This document shows positions 55,984-61,964 of a DNA stretch of 64,000 nt, piece by piece. The stretch lies in assembly GCF_000024065.1 (NCBI RefSeq), contig NC_013174.1:1116001-1180000 (forward strand), in the 5' to 3' direction. Each line of letters starts with the position of its first letter. The stretch's first letter is position 1. The notes beneath the pieces are model-generated. The model saw nothing but the letters and a program-made list of their open reading frames with translations. It was not told the origin of the DNA and did not search any database. Source of the DNA: Jonesia denitrificans DSM 20603. Lineage in GTDB: Bacteria; Actinomycetota; Actinomycetes; Actinomycetales; Cellulomonadaceae. A program made the position numbers and the translations under genes.

Positions 55984-57429
55984 TCACTGTCCTACGCGTT
56001 CGCGCAGTGTTTGACCAAGTTGGCTGTCGACACTGCCCCAATATCCAAAGAATCGCTCCCGAACTTCTGGGCGGCTGATGGACTTGCCTTGGCCGGTGAG
56101 GGTGTCGATAAACCTCGAGCGTTGGTCATCAGTGAAGACCTCACGATAGAGGGTGCCCGCCTGACCGAAGTCGTCATCGTGCGTACGAAGCGTGTAGGCA
56201 GCGCGCAGCAGCGGCCCATCTGTTTCCCAGTTCACTTCGCCTGCGGCTGCTTCATTGGCTTCGGGGTATCCCAATGAGTTGGTGTTGTGGACTGGAACTT
56301 CATAGTCATTTGACACATATCGCATGTTGCCTTCGTGCTGGTAGTTCACAACCTCTGCAGCGTGCGGTTGGTTGACCGGCAACTGGTTGTAGTTTGTCCC
56401 GATGCGGTAGCGCTGTGCGTCAGGGTAGGCAAACATGCGTCCCATGAGCATTTTGTCAGGGGAAATGCCGGTGCCAGGAACCAGGTTGGACGGTGAGAAG
56501 GCCGCTTGCTCGATGTCTTGGAAGAAGTTGCGGGGGTTGCGGTTCAACGTCAATTCGCCCACTTTGATGCGAGGGTAGTCACTAAAGGACCAGATCTTTG
56601 TCAAGTCAAACGGGTTGAAGTGGTATGTTTTCGCGTCCTCATACGGCATGACCTGGACGTACATGTCCCACACGGGGTTGTCGCCGCGATCGATGGCGTC
56701 AAAGAGGTCACGACGGTAGAAGTCGGCGTCGGTTCCTGCGAGCCGTTCTGCTTCGTCGTTCGTCATGGATTCCACACCTTGTCGGGAGACAAAGTGGTAT
56801 TTGACCCAGAACTGCTCGCCAGCCTCGTTTGCCCACGAGTAGGTGTGCGAGCCGTACCCGTTCATGTGGCGCCAGGTCTTTGGCAAGCCACGGTCGCCCA
56901 TGAGGTAAGTCACTTGGTGTGCGGATTCTGGTGACAGCGTCCAGAAGTCCCACTGCATGTTGGAGTCGCGCAGCCCCTTGCCGTTGCGCTTTTGCGAGTG
57001 AATGAAGTCAGGGAACTTGATGGCGTCGCGGATGAAGAAGATGGGGGTGTTATTTCCGACAATATCGAAATTGCCTTCTGTGGTGTAGTACCGCAGTGCA
57101 AATCCGCGGACGTCACGCCAGGTATCGGGGGAACCTTGTTCACCGGCGACTGAGGAGAAACGCAGGAGTGTTTCGGTTGTGGCGCCTGGCTGGAAGACCG
57201 CCGCCTTGGTGTAGCGGGTGACATCTTCAGTGACGACGAATTCACCAAATGCACCGCCACCTTTTGCGTGGGGGTTGCGCTCTGGAACGCGTTCCCGGTT
57301 AAAGGACGCGAGTTTCTCCACGAGGAAGCGATCGTGGAGCGCGGTGACGCCATCGGGTCCGGTGGTCAGGGAGTGCTGGGAACTGGCAATGGGGGAACCA
57401 TTTTGGGCAGTGGTGGGCTGTTCGGTCAT
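55984..57429 (-). CDS. katA: Monofunctional haem catalase
   Basis: A 481-residue clade 3-type small-subunit catalase. Seen: [22 protein letters not shown] with the distal His, [50 protein letters not shown], and the proximal haem ligand Tyr in [14 protein letters not shown]. It degrades hydrogen peroxide. ATG 57429 begins MTEQPTT; the open frame reaches 57462. Directly downstream of fur (75-bp gap) on the same strand, the classic katA-fur peroxide-response pair. Confidence 0.96.
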
Positions 57430-57504
57430 AACCTGCTGTCCTTTTCTGTGTGGGTGGTGCAATGGGAAAGAGTGACGATGTGTAGGCGCGGTGCCTGTAC
57501 GTCG

Positions 57505-57927
57505 TCACGTTGTGCGTGTTTGGCACTGGGGGCATCGCCCCCAGAACGTCACTTCCGCTTCGTCCACGGTGTAGCCGTGGTTGGTGTGGGGGATGAGGCA
57601 GGGGGCTTGTCCGATGGTGCAGTCGATGTCTTGGACATCGCCGCAGGCTCGGCACACCATGTGGTGGTGGTTGTCTCCTACCCGTAGTTCGAAGCGTGCG
57701 GGGTGGCCGGCTGGTTCGATGCGGTTCATCAAACCATGGGCGGCAAAGGTATTGAGGGCGTCGTAGATGGTCTGCACCGATGCTGTGCCCAGGGCCTGGC
57801 GGACTGCGGTTAAGACGGTGTCAGAGTCTGCGTGGGGGTGATGGGAGACGGCGTCGAGGACGGCGAGGCGTGTCGCGGTGACGCGTAGGCCTGCAGACCT
57901 GAGGAGTTCCTCAAATGACGTGTCCAT
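57505..57927 (-). CDS. Fur-family regulator (FurA/CatR-like)
   Basis: A 140-residue Fur-family repressor. Winged-helix domain (about 1-80, LRSAGLRVTATRLAVLDAV and VQTIYDALNTFAAHGL), then the metal-binding dimer domain with DNHHHMVCRACGDVQDID and the zinc-binding CPQC at the C terminus. The adjacent catalase indicates a peroxide- or iron-sensing role like FurA of mycobacteria or CatR of Streptomyces. The promoter has a TACCGT hexamer at 57942-57947 (minus) and a palindrome just upstream, consistent with autoregulation. Confidence 0.92.
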   Translation of the reverse strand: MDTSFEELLRSAGLRVTATRLAVLDAVSHHPHADSDTVLTAVRQALGTASVQTIYDALNTFAAHGLMNRIEPAGHPARFELRVGDNHHHMVCRACGDVQDIDCTIGQAPCLIPHTNHGYTVDEAEVTFWGRCPQCQTRTT

Positions 57928-57948
57928 GACTCAAGTGAAACACGGTAA

Positions 57949-57963
57949 CTGGAATAATTCAAG
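57949..57963. promoter_or_regulatory. Putative Fur-family operator before fur
   Basis: The 15-mer CTTGAATTATTCCAG (minus strand) is a palindrome with one mismatched pair, AT-rich against a GC-rich background, placed immediately upstream of the TACCGT -10 and 22 bases before the fur ATG. It resembles actinobacterial FurA/CatR sites in position and base composition. Confidence 0.55.
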
Positions 57964-58064
57964 AAAACGAATGGTTCAGAAAAGTGACGAAAGTGTGACG
58001 AAGAACTGACGCCAAGAAGGCGTTCACGCACGGTGGCTGGGTGTTAGCGGTGAGGGAGGCGTGC

Positions 58065-58070
58065 TACAGT
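58065..58070 (+). promoter_or_regulatory. Putative -10 (TACAGT) of the infC operon
   Basis: TACAGT at the left end of the 390-bp gap before infC; the first leader hairpin starts 12 bases later. The -35 is unclear. Confidence 0.4.
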
Positions 58071-58081
58071 GGGGGAAACCG

Positions 58082-58273
58082 ACCTTGGAGTCCATGCTCC
58101 AAGGTTCACAAGTGGTTCGCCCACCCGAGTTTCGCCATCTCCATGAGCTGAGGCCGGGTCAACAGGTTTCACGGTTGGGCTTTGCCCAACGTTATGAGTG
58201 TACGCACGCACCTTGCGTGCTGAGTATGCGCTTGCGTGAAAAATGGGCCTCCACATGTGACCGATGTGGAGGC
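58082..58273 (+). promoter_or_regulatory. Structured infC leader ending in an intrinsic terminator (attenuator)
   Basis: Four stem-loops in order: 58082-58105 (9-bp stem), 58174-58190 (GTTGGGC/GCCCAAC), 58204-58220 (GCACGCA/TGCGTGC) and 58247-58273, a 10-bp stem GCCTCCACAT/ATGTGGAGGC with 7-base loop directly followed by TTTCTTC. The last is a good rho-independent terminator 44 bases before the infC start. IF3-L35-L20 operons are commonly controlled by such attenuators (for example the L20 leader in Bacillus). The antiterminator pairing is not resolved. A tiny ORF (58194-58223) covers hairpin 3. Confidence 0.75.
58194..58223 (+). CDS. Possible 9-codon leader peptide in the infC leader
   Basis: ATG AGT GTA CGC ACG CAC CTT GCG TGC TGA would give MSVRTHLAC. 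No ribosome binding site is visible. Its last codons lie in hairpin 3, ahead of the terminator, where ribosome stalling could alter folding. Speculative. Confidence 0.2.
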   Translation: MSVRTHLAC

Positions 58274-58317
58274 TTTCTTCATGTCGACGGCCACGTCATC
58301 AACGCAAGGAGCATCAC

Positions 58318-58965
58318 ATCAACGAGCCGCGCATCAACGATCGAATCCGTGTCCCCGAGGTTCGACTCGTCGGCCCAGGAGGGGAACAGGTCGGTGTTGT
58401 CCGCCTTGAGGTCGCTCTCAATCTTGCCCAAGAAGCAGACCTCGACCTTGTTGAGGTCGCCCCAGACTCCCGCCCACCTGTGTGCAAACTGATGGACTAC
58501 GGCAAATTCAAGTACGAGTCCGCGATGAAGGCACGCGAAGCGCGCCGCAACCAAGCGAACACCGTCTTGAAGGAAATCCGGTTCCGTCTGAAAATCGATG
58601 ACCACGACTACGGCACAAAAAAAGGCCATGTCGAACGATTCCTCTCAGCCGGTGACAAGGTCAAAGTGATGATCATGTTCCGCGGACGTGAACAGTCACG
58701 ACCAGAGATGGGAATCCGACTCCTGCAGCGACTCGCGGATGACGTTGCCGAACTTGGTTATGTCGAGAGTTCACCGAAACAGGATGGACGCAACATGATC
58801 ATGGTTCTTGGGCCCACCAAGAAGAAAACAGAAGCAAAAAGTGAGCAACGGCGTCGGCGTGAATCGGGTCGTCCACAGCGAGGGGACAAACCCGCGCAGA
58901 ACACGGACGCCACTGACAGCGCTGAAACCGTCACCCAGGACGACGCATCAACCTCATCCCCATGA
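58318..58965 (+). CDS. infC: Translation initiation factor IF-3 (non-canonical ATC start)
   Basis: IF3 checks the start codon and keeps 30S subunits free. The family N terminus [20 protein letters not shown] begins exactly at ATC 58318, with AAGGAG six bases upstream; no ATG or GTG is near. Use of AUC/AUU/AUA is a known autoregulatory feature of infC. The 215-residue protein has the N domain (1-80), linker [20 protein letters not shown] domain ([22 protein letters not shown] and [11 protein letters not shown]), and a disordered charged tail of about 40 residues beyond the bacterial norm of 180. First gene of infC-rpmI-rplT. Confidence 0.95.
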
Positions 58966-59085
58966 CCTCGCCACTGCACCCGCAGTGAGTAGCCCGATGG
59001 GTTTACCCATCAGCTGGCGTCTTTCTCGGCGTCAGCCCGAACACGTCACGTCCCCGCGTGGCCGACAGCAAGGAGAACGGCAGCC

Positions 59086-59280
59086 ATGCCGAAGAACAAG
59101 ACGCACTCCGGCGCCAAGAAGCGCTTCCGTGTCACTGGTAGCGGAAAGATCATGCGCGAGCAGGCCAACAAGCGTCACCTTCTCGAGCACAAGTCTTCAA
59201 CTCGCACCCGTCGTCTGTCATCCGACCAGGTCGTGAGCGACGCAGACGTCAAGAAGATCAAGAAGCTTCTCGGTAAGTGA
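59086..59280 (+). CDS. rpmI: 50S ribosomal protein L35
   Basis: A 64-residue basic protein with the L35 pattern [20 protein letters not shown] and [19 protein letters not shown] with AAGGAG eleven bases upstream. Between infC and rplT as usual. Confidence 0.97.
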
Positions 59281-59337
59281 CCTTCACGGCACTCGCCATC
59301 TCTTAACCCATAGTTTTTCTCATCGAAGGAGCATCAC

Positions 59338-59724
59338 GTGGCACGCGTGAAGCGGGCGGTTAACGCCCACAAAAAGCGTCGGACAGTACTCGAGCGCGCA
59401 AGCGGTTACCGTGGGCAGCGCTCACGCCTCTACCGCAAGGCAAAAGAGCAAGTTACCCACTCACTGGTCTACAACTACCGCGACCGTAAGCGTCGTAAAG
59501 GGGACTTCCGTCGCCTGTGGATCCAGCGCATCAATGCTGCAGCCCGCGCCCAGGGTATGACCTATAACCGTTTTATCCAAGGGCTCAAGGCTGCAGGTGT
59601 TGAGGTTGACCGTCGAGTTCTTGCCGAACTTGCCGTCAGTGACATCAACGCGTTCAACGCTCTTGTCACCGTCGCAAAGGCAGCCCTGCCCGAGGACGTC
59701 AACGCTCCTCGCCAGGCTGCGTAA
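59338..59724 (+). CDS. rplT: 50S ribosomal protein L20
   Basis: A 128-residue protein with the L20 signature: [19 protein letters not shown], the [20 protein letters not shown] segment and [26 protein letters not shown] start with AAGGAG seven bases upstream. L20 is needed early in 50S assembly and in some bacteria represses its own operon through the leader. Confidence 0.97.
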
Positions 59725-59738
59725 CGCAGACCGTCACG

Positions 59739-60599
59739 GTGCCCAACGCACCTGTTCCCGAACGCCCAGACATGCCCGACCTGACGAACCCGCGAAGTGA
59801 CCGGGTCAAAATGGTTCGACGCTTGTCTGGGCGTTCGTCGCGTACCAAACATGGCCAATTCCTTGTTGAAGGGCCTCAAAGCGTCCGTGAACTCGTTGCC
59901 TGCCGGGCTGAACTGGTCCGAGACCTCTATGTCAGTTCGGACCGTGTGGACCGCTACCGAGACATTTACGACGAGGCGCACAGACAATCTCTTTACCTAC
60001 ACACCACCACGCCAGAGGTCCTGTCAGCCATGAGCGAGGACGCACAGGGCATTGTCGCGGTTGCGCGTACTTTAGACACGCGCCTCTCGTCACTTGGCCC
60101 CGTCCTGAGCAAAGCCTGTCTTGTCGCAGTTCTCACTGACGTACGGGACCCCGGTAACGCGGGAACCGTGATCCGGGCAGCTGATGCAGCTGGAGCTGAT
60201 GTGGTGATCCTTGCAGGTGACAGTGTGGACTTAATGAACCCCAAGGTTGTGCGATCCAGTGCTGGGTCACTGTTTCACATGCCGGTGATCACCAATGCAT
60301 CATTGGTTGATGTGCACGGTGCACTCAAGATGGCCGGAATCCCGCTTTTCGGGACCACGCCATATGCTGACCTCACACTCGATGACCTCGTGGAGCCACA
60401 AGGTCCTACCAGTGTGGGAGCACCACATGCGTGGGTGTTTGGAAACGAAGCACAAGGACTCAGCGTTGAGGACCAGTCCATGTGCGATTCGCTGGTACGG
60501 ATTCCCATGTACGGACGTGCGGAATCGTTGAACCTGGCAATGGCTGCCACTATTTGCTTGTACACATCCGCTCGCGCATTGCGCACGACGACAAGGTGA
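59739..60599 (+). CDS. SpoU/TrmH-family RNA 2'-O-methyltransferase
   Basis: A 286-residue SPOUT methyltransferase. N-terminal substrate-binding domain (about 25-110, RTKHGQFLVEGPQSVREL), then the knotted SPOUT domain with motif 1 LTDVRDPGNAGTVIRAADAAGAD, motif 2 WVFGNEAQGLS and motif 3 RIPMYGRAESLNLAMAATI. Likely rRNA (RlmB or TsnR-like) target. GTG 59739 is the first start; an ATG at 59772 would shorten it by 11 residues. Follows rplT, as in many actinobacteria. Confidence 0.93.
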   Translation: MPNAPVPERPDMPDLTNPRSDRVKMVRRLSGRSSRTKHGQFLVEGPQSVRELVACRAELVRDLYVSSDRVDRYRDIYDEAHRQSLYLHTTTPEVLSAMSEDAQGIVAVARTLDTRLSSLGPVLSKACLVAVLTDVRDPGNAGTVIRAADAAGADVVILAGDSVDLMNPKVVRSSAGSLFHMPVITNASLVDVHGALKMAGIPLFGTTPYADLTLDDLVEPQGPTSVGAPHAWVFGNEAQGLSVEDQSMCDSLVRIPMYGRAESLNLAMAATICLYTSARALRTTTR

Positions 60600-60602
60600 C
60601 TC

Positions 60603-61964
60603 ATGTCTGACCAGAGCCTACGACATGGTTTGAAAGTCCGGCACCTCACCATGATGGGTCTGGGTTCTGCAATCGGAGCAGGCCTTTTTGTGGGGTCCGG
60701 GAACGCAATTCAATCTGCGGGCCCCGCAGTCCTTGTGTCATATATTGTCGCGGGAGTCGTTGTTGTCATTATTATGAGTTTGCTTGGTGAGCTTGCTAGC
60801 GCACGACCTTCGTCGGGGGCTTTTTCTACGTACGCGGAACAAGGGATCGGACGGTGGGCGGGATACGCGGTGGGATGGGCGTATTGGTTCATGCTCATCA
60901 TGGTGCTCGGCGTCGAAATTCTTGCAGCGACCACGATCATGGCGGGGTGGATTAACATCCCGCAGTGGCTGATCGCCGGGGTGCTGATCGCACTGTTTGC
61001 TGCTGTCAATCTTGTTGGGGTACGACAGTTTGGGGAGCTGGAGTTCTGGTTCGCTGCGATCAAAGTTGCGGCCATTATTGGGTTCCTTGTTGTGGGTGTC
61101 CTCATTGTGACTGGCGTGATTTCCGCTGGTCCCAACGTCGGTGTGGGGCAACTTGTTGCAGGAGATGGGGGCTTTGCGCCACGTGGAGCTGCCGGAGTAG
61201 CAGCGGGTCTCCTCGCTGTGATGTTTGCTTTTGGTGGCATTGAGATCATTACGATTGCCGCGGCTGAGGCGACAAATCCGCAGTCAGCTATTCGCCGTGC
61301 CACGATCTCTATCATGTGGCGGATTTTGTTCTTCTACATTGGGTCAGTTGTTGTCATGCTGGCGGTTGTGCCGTGGAACGATCCGCAGTTCGAGCAGGGT
61401 GGCTTTGTTGCCGTGTTGAACCGCGCGAACATTCCCTATGCTTCGGGCCTGATGGAAGCCGTGATTGTTGTGGCGCTTCTTTCGGCGTTTAACGCCCAGC
61501 TCTATGCGACCTCCAGGATGGCTTTTTCCTTGGCACAACGTGGCGAGGGGCCTGCAGTGTTGTTGCGACTCTCAGGGCGTGATGTTCCGTGGATCGCAGT
61601 CATGGTGTCTATTGTCTTCTCCGTGCTTGCGGTGACAGCTCATGCGCTTGACACCCAGGGTCGGGTCATGGGCACTCTTCTTGACGCGGTCGGGGCGTTC
61701 CTCCTCATCATTTGGGTGTTCATTGCTGTGTCGCAGATCCGGTTGCGCCCCCAGTTAGAGCGTGAGGGGTCGCTCAAGATGCGCACCTGGGCGCATCCGT
61801 GGCTCGCGATTGGGGCACTTGTCTCCATCACTGCTTTCATCGTGCTCATGCTTTTTGATGCGAACGGGCGCCAGAACCTGTCCTTTTCTCTGGTGATGTT
61901 CGCCATGATCTGTGGCACCTACGTTATTCATTCGCGCCGAGGTGCGCAGCGATCCCTACAATAG
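60603..61964 (+). CDS. Amino acid permease (APC superfamily)
   Basis: A 453-residue transporter of the amino acid-polyamine-organocation superfamily with about 12 transmembrane helices. The conserved MMGLGSAIGAGLFVGSG in helix 1 (substrate-binding unwound segment), SYIVAGVVVVIIMSLLGELA, SGAFSTYAEQGIGRWAGYAVGWAYW, and FGGIEIITIAAAEATNP in helix 6 are those of the GabP/ProY/AroP (amino acid:proton symporter) group. Substrate not predictable. ATG with AAGGTG five bases upstream, in the 3-bp gap after the methyltransferase. Confidence 0.93.
   Translation: MSDQSLRHGLKVRHLTMMGLGSAIGAGLFVGSGNAIQSAGPAVLVSYIVAGVVVVIIMSLLGELASARPSSGAFSTYAEQGIGRWAGYAVGWAYWFMLIMVLGVEILAATTIMAGWINIPQWLIAGVLIALFAAVNLVGVRQFGELEFWFAAIKVAAIIGFLVVGVLIVTGVISAGPNVGVGQLVAGDGGFAPRGAAGVAAGLLAVMFAFGGIEIITIAAAEATNPQSAIRRATISIMWRILFFYIGSVVVMLAVVPWNDPQFEQGGFVAVLNRANIPYASGLMEAVIVVALLSAFNAQLYATSRMAFSLAQRGEGPAVLLRLSGRDVPWIAVMVSIVFSVLAVTAHALDTQGRVMGTLLDAVGAFLLIIWVFIAVSQIRLRPQLEREGSLKMRTWAHPWLAIGALVSITAFIVLMLFDANGRQNLSFSLVMFAMICGTYVIHSRRGAQRSLQ

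Follow-up and report, generated by a model that had tools for sequence, protein, structure and literature searches.

A conserved attenuator-type leader RNA upstream of infC-rpmI-rplT in Jonesia denitrificans and its class, likely sensing ribosomal protein L20

The window analysed here, to which all coordinates refer, is a stretch of 64,000 nucleotides covering positions 1116001-1180000 of the single-contig 2.75-Mb genome of Jonesia denitrificans DSM 20603. It carries the infC-rpmI-rplT operon preceded by a structured leader. The infC frame was placed by open reading frame (ORF), homology and start-codon count, rpmI and rplT were read from the ORF list and named by eye from their translations, and the leader was annotated as follows.

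58062-58070, forward strand: probable extended -10 promoter element TG-n-TACAGT, read from the sequence
58076-58080, forward strand: 5′ strand of closing helix P0, AAACC, pairing with 58165-58169
58082-58105, forward strand: hairpin P1, nine pairs in Jonesia, a covarying helix
58107-58115, forward strand: likely antiterminator strand CACAAGUGG, composed of the linker with the AA dimer and the 5′ strand of P2 (coevolution, minimum free energy fold)
58112-58122, forward strand: hairpin P2, G-(U)-GG-UUCG-CC-C, a consensus helix
58123-58159, forward strand: hairpin P3, ACCCG...CGGGU, a consensus helix with covariation at the fourth pair
58165-58169, forward strand: 3′ strand of P0, GGTTT, pairing with 58076-58080
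58247-58279, forward strand: intrinsic terminator, a hairpin at 58247-58273 followed by TTTCTT (folding, leader comparison)
58251-58259, forward strand: likely antiterminator partner CCACAUGUG in the 5′ arm of the terminator (coevolution, folding)
58306-58311, forward strand: Shine-Dalgarno sequence AAGGAG of infC (sequence, IF3 homology search)
58318-58965, forward strand: infC (IF3), start codon ATC at 58318-58320
59086-59280, forward strand: rpmI (L35)
59338-59724, forward strand: rplT (L20), the proposed source of the ligand

Divergently oriented upstream of infC, a catalase-like gene and a Fur-family-like regulator occupy 55984-57927 on the minus strand. Downstream, an amino-acid-permease-like gene (60603-61964) lies between an RNA-methyltransferase-like gene following rplT and pheS; all these names were given by eye.

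The ORF list had placed the start of the infC frame at ATG 58264, as ATC was absent from its start codons. Homology to IF3 begins at the ATC codon, separated from AAGGAG by a gap of 6 nt, and the reading of ATC as a start at the proper distance, made in the earlier note, was therefore correct. Of 59 genomes of the order, 57 yielded an infC gene (Jonesia's own, a second from its genus, 34 more from the family and 21 from elsewhere in the order), and 55 of these 57 loci, own genome counted, start with ATC. With 76 of 77 further class loci, this brings ATC to 131 of 134 infC loci overall, the remainder being two ATT and one GTC. An ATC start is ordinary and near-universal in the class, and no peculiarity of the Jonesia genome. 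E. coli IF3 limits its own synthesis via a non-AUG start codon. By analogy, self-limitation of IF3 through the ATC start is a reasonable inference; such control would act separately from the leader, on translation.

Transcription of the leader presumably starts at about 58072-58077, downstream of the -10 element, and a TAnnnT box was seen at about the same position in many relatives. P0 is AAACC:GGTTT in Jonesia versus GACC:GGTC in most relatives, a compensated change, while P2 is reduced to a G-C pair plus two G-C pairs around a UUCG loop. The leader (58074-58283) folded at -90.8 kcal/mol (z -4.9), and none of 200 shuffles did as well. For the full-length RNA (58072-58283), the minimum free energy (MFE) fold, with terminator, reached -97.1 and that combining P0-P3 with the terminator -90.5. 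P0 and the consensus P2 are absent from this MFE fold, and P0-P3 is predicted not to be the unaided optimum of the full RNA. The leader had been described beforehand as four hairpins ending in a rho-independent terminator; the last hairpin is indeed that terminator, and the number of hairpins was roughly right, the actual set consisting of P1, P2, P3, variable hairpins and the terminator. The 3′ side of P0 (58165-58173) can also pair with 58235-58241 before the terminator (GUUUCACG with CGUGAAA); pairings of this kind (GGUCCGA:UCGGAC) were visible by eye in the leaders of several relatives. This pairing could form a further layer of the switch.

All 57 own-order leaders share the arrangement GACC...GCAAGYGGAG..CUCCCACC...GGGU..GGUC. 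A structure-blind MAFFT alignment (A1) of the 27 leaders whose ends could be placed was analysed with RNAalifold, giving the closing helix P0 and the hairpins P1, P2 and P3; both bases had changed at least once in 14 of the 25 pairs. The covariance model made from A1 (R1) matched 53 of the 57 own-order loci at E≤1 and 48 at E≤0.001, the 27 training leaders included. A class search located infC in 87 of 88 genomes; 77 of these loci were new, five belonged to the order set, four had been retrieved earlier and one was truncated. Those retrieved earlier (L075, L077-L079) all matched R1 with 29.8-42.5 bits, the lowest order-level value being 26.9 bits. R1 matched 65 of the 77 new loci at E≤1, and 52 of these passed E≤0.001.

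For a wider count, cmsearch was run on 100 of the 134 loci, namely 53 of the 57 order loci (excluding the four with no R1 match) and 47 of those 52 class loci that R1 had matched at E≤0.001; 95 of the 100 passed E≤0.001. In the resulting alignment, which was fitted to R1 and hence leans towards the R1 structure, 94.8% of cells pair versus 78.7% in shuffles, 387 cells carry double changes versus 140, and the covariation score is 0.389 versus 0.121 for shuffles and at most 0.070 for slid structures. Neither the AA dimer (58110-58111 in Jonesia) nor, within P3, the A-U pair and two of the C-G pairs varied in any of the 95 leaders. Covariation, which the earlier note proposed to check across Micrococcales, was thus found across the order and class for the four-helix P0-P3 element, a conserved RNA that is widespread in the class Actinomycetes. 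Small class genomes of 1.3-1.4 Mb (L174-L178) have a shortened or altered core (AAGAGGAG..) that gave no match to R1, and may carry a reduced form of the leader.

A terminator-like hairpin below -15 kcal/mol, located 30-95 nt upstream of infC, was present in 101 of 134 leaders and in 20 of 134 after one shuffle of the last 140 nt of each. Antiterminators were sought by pairing the 5′ arm of the terminator with six segments of its own leader versus those of the leaders of other species. The segment AAGYGG..CUCC was the sole one that paired clearly better natively, with z -6.9 for 50 order leaders, -5.7 for 43 class leaders and -9.4 for all 93. A stricter anchor left 96 of the 134 leaders for analysis and removed 38 that lacked an anchor, a terminator or suitable spacing. 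Native pairing was then stronger than swapped pairing within families (-12.01 versus -11.08 kcal/mol, 0/5000), in the own family (n=35, -12.05 versus -10.08) and in a set reduced to a single leader from each family (n=37, -11.52 versus -10.20). At least seven of eight antiterminator pairs were formed in 63 of the 96 leaders versus 43% of swapped pairs, and all eight in 27 of 96 versus 10%. In Jonesia, CACA-A-GUGG pairs with CCAC-A-UGUG. This helix is within the MFE fold (-84.1) of an RNA ending at 58260, while in the full-length RNA the best antiterminator fold reaches -89.8 versus the MFE of -97.1 given above. As to the other segments, the 3′ strand of P3 (GAGGCC with GGCCUC of the terminator) was attractive in Jonesia alone and was rejected as it did not coevolve; the 5′ side of P3, the 3′ side of P0 and the stretch just before the terminator were discarded on the same ground (93 leaders), and the 3′ side of P1 was borderline (z -1.6, p 0.05, 93 leaders).

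By sequence and folding only, an intrinsic terminator and a mutually exclusive antiterminator were thus both found. Combined with the covariation of the leader and the coevolution of the two strands, they bear out the earlier note in its reading of the region as a terminator-type attenuator, and the infC leader is assigned with high confidence as a transcription attenuator, in which the CACAAGUGG/CCACAUGUG pairing is the likely switch. What operates this switch need not be a ribosomal protein. Transcription speed, NusA/NusG, growth state or a small molecule could do so, and a kinetic switch is conceivable since the RNA ending at 58260 folds the antiterminator unaided. A general signal of this kind is nonetheless considered unlikely, because the near or complete invariance of the AA dimer, of the G-C pairs in P2 and of the first three P3 pairs suggests a bound partner, and because the core is common to L20 leaders.

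This common core became apparent from the comparison with RF00558, the Rfam model of the B. subtilis infC-rpmI-rplT leader. Its consensus reads AAGa[AGAAGC ACCC GCUUCU]C gCC U...A GGc and that of the class leader AAGY[GGAG..CUCC]C ACC Y...R GGU, both having the form AAG-n-hairpin-C-NCC...GGN'. The Jonesia leader fits the core as AAG-U-[GG UUCG CC]-C-ACC...GGU, although the core descriptor, which requires a stem of 4 bp or more, misses it since its P2 is too short. The descriptor was found in 104 of 134 class leaders versus 49 of 2680 shuffles, the background in actinobacterial genomic segments being 48 of 2244. In other classes of the phylum, it matched 47 of 80 infC leaders (82 genomes minus one split gene and one not fetched, some matches being close relatives) versus 22 of 1600 shuffles (1.4%). 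RF00558 itself was applied to 20 of these 47; 14 matched at E≤1 and 8 at E≤0.01, the best with 42.3 bits, all 14 being below the cut-off of 58.7 bits. No match was obtained at E≤1, and hence none at the gathering value of 58.7 bits, in Jonesia 56000-61000, nor did any of 60 class genomes reach the cut-off. R1 gave a single match among 22 other-class leaders (E 0.55), so the link to the other classes rests on the descriptor together with the sub-threshold RF00558 matches. Leaders near the Firmicutes L20 consensus, e.g., AAGCAGAAGCACCCGCTTCTCACCTG, were seen upstream of infC in other classes (L095, L321, L322, L323 and L368); where scanned, these were below the Rfam cut-off.

The invariant residues of the class leader include a known signature. 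L20 leaders share an AA dimer and two consecutive G-C pairs (Eckert 2020, PMC7247131, as far as available), and both were invariant in the 95 model-fitted leaders. The leader sits before an L20-encoding operon, as expected of L20 ribosomal-protein leaders. A profile scan of Jonesia 23S rRNA, run to see whether the leader mimics the L20 site there, did not point to that site alone: AAGUGG occurred once, at what we take to be the L20 site, and AAGCGG at four other places. Of 85 loci examined for gene order, 83 have infC-rpmI-rplT, and contig ends interrupt the other two. As the operon is conserved as a whole, context alone cannot separate L20 from L35 or IF3, and sensing of either of the latter would fit the three linked genes equally well. 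We regard this as quite unlikely, given that the leader has the core of its Firmicutes L20 counterpart, which is reported to have L20 as its ligand (PMC6097659, in the part available). The common core and its recurrence in other classes make feedback attenuation by L20 the best explanation. Of the ligands suggested beforehand, L20, IF3 and ribosome stalling, the first is favoured by the Firmicutes core and the last found no support; judged from these sequence comparisons, L20 appears a good but unproven candidate.

The position of the element was examined with the core pattern AAGYGGAGN(2-10)CTCCCACC, which occurred in 60 of 88 class genomes, in single copy in each, versus nine occurrences in total for the reversed control pattern. 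All 60 shared the strand of infC and preceded the infC match by about 145-291 nt. With GG-UUCG-CC as its P2, Jonesia falls outside the pattern and is not among the 60 genomes. A scan of named genomes with the pattern returned at least 120 stretches; among the 80 loci listed, 76 had IF3 within 700 nt downstream, and of the other four L221 and L224 contained too little sequence, L231 was a Myxococcales MAG and L249 an Arthrobacter. Whole-genome scans with R1 gave no second leader copy in Jonesia at E≤10, these scans being insensitive: in one, 9 of 246 phylum genomes matched, and another missed the infC leaders of G095 and G127 found before. Therefore, the distribution given here is based on infC-anchored loci and the core pattern. 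Weak R1 matches away from infC (L070, L071 and L306) were taken as chance, the ORF list of L070 and the sequence of L306 having been inspected.

In the Streptomyces-like loci L121 and L112, the infC leader was matched by RF02830 (Scr1601) with 184.2 and 170 bits (cut-off 100), spanning L121:1202-1408 and L112:2122-2332. In L121, the match extends from just before P0 to the U-tract of the terminator, and Streptomyces Scr1601 is, on sequence grounds, identified as the infC leader RNA over this extent. Two further class loci gave weak RF02830 matches of 26.3 and 22.5 bits; the Jonesia leader gave none at E≤1, and so none at the gathering value of 100 bits. The RNA might be mainly a trans-acting small RNA, its place before infC being secondary, since the Rfam entry of the Streptomyces copy is of type 'Gene; sRNA' and scr1601 is among the S. 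coelicolor RNAs with confirmed expression (PMC8388888, in the part available). This seems very unlikely, as all 60 pattern matches are just upstream of infC, the antiterminator coevolves with the terminator, and the same source assigns the S. ambofaciens copy to a UTR; the RNA may have a trans role beside attenuation. Twelve reported Streptomyces sRNAs were stated to look like highly expressed 5′ UTRs, Scr1601 not being named in the available part of that paper (PMC3765725). As for the nine-codon leader peptide ending in Cys suggested earlier, the frame MSVRTHLAC is open at 58194-58223, but control of the terminator by ribosome stalling on it was rejected as most improbable, because the frame lacks a Shine-Dalgarno sequence, the sister species lacks the peptide and, among 101 leaders, short frames preceded by a Shine-Dalgarno sequence occur in 17 but never end in Cys. 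The sole such frame in the Jonesia leader starts at about the presumed RNA start.

Taken together, the infC leader is probably an attenuator of the ribosomal-protein-leader type that senses L20. Computation supports the conserved structure and the terminator, the antiterminator that excludes the terminator and coevolves with it, and the core in common with RF00558, whereas L20 as ligand and binding favouring termination are what we infer. When L20 is scarce, CACAAGUGG (58107-58115) would pair with the 5′ arm of the terminator (58251-58259), resulting in read-through into infC-rpmI-rplT. L20 in excess of its rRNA sites would bind the P0-P3 element, which has the same core as known L20 leaders (AA dimer, P2 and C-G pairs of P3); P2 would then be locked and the antiterminator blocked, so that the terminator would release an RNA of about 200 nt. 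If this is true, Streptomyces, Rhodococcus, mycobacteria and relatives gain feedback control of IF3, L35 and L20, and Scr1601 is explained as the terminated leader. More tentatively, and with somewhat more doubt than belief, one L20 leader may predate the split of Firmicutes and Actinomycetota, being located before infC in both. In the class Actinomycetes, a closing helix and one further hairpin would then have been added, and the strand contacted by L20 would have been reused as antiterminator, so that L20 binding and terminator opening compete for the same nine nucleotides.

A literature search, which left subscription papers mostly uncovered, returned no published description of the P0-P3 structure. 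For M. tuberculosis, a 5′ UTR of 326 nt was reported for infC (Arnvig 2011, PMC3207917), with a UTR/CDS read ratio of 2.6 during exponential growth and of 4.9 in stationary phase, and the analogy with the B. subtilis L20 system was already suggested by its authors. That account stresses homology with the infA leader and, in the part available, gives no structure, antiterminator or class-wide conservation. The infA/infC leader homology described there stands beside a core pattern occurring only before infC in the class genomes scanned here. Scr1601 (RF02830) is the same element at the same place before infC, but filed as a small RNA gene. The Deltaproteobacteria L20 leader candidate (Eckert 2020, PMC7247131) and the E. 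coli leader are alike in the AA dimer and the two consecutive G-C pairs; both differ in scaffold, and the E. coli leader also in acting by translational control (PMC10931766, in part). In the part examined, the L20-leader table of Eckert 2020 has no Actinobacteria entry. The B. subtilis L20 RNA was called narrowly distributed to Firmicutes (PMC6097659, in part), whereas its core was found here in over half of the other-class genomes (47/80) and most class leaders (104/134). The leader of RF00558 is alike in operon, terminator control and core, and the class leader differs in having a four-helix junction closed by P0 and P1, and the Jonesia leader gives no match to the RF00558 model. Judged from the sequences compared, the class leader is most likely the Actinomycetes variant of the L20 leader.
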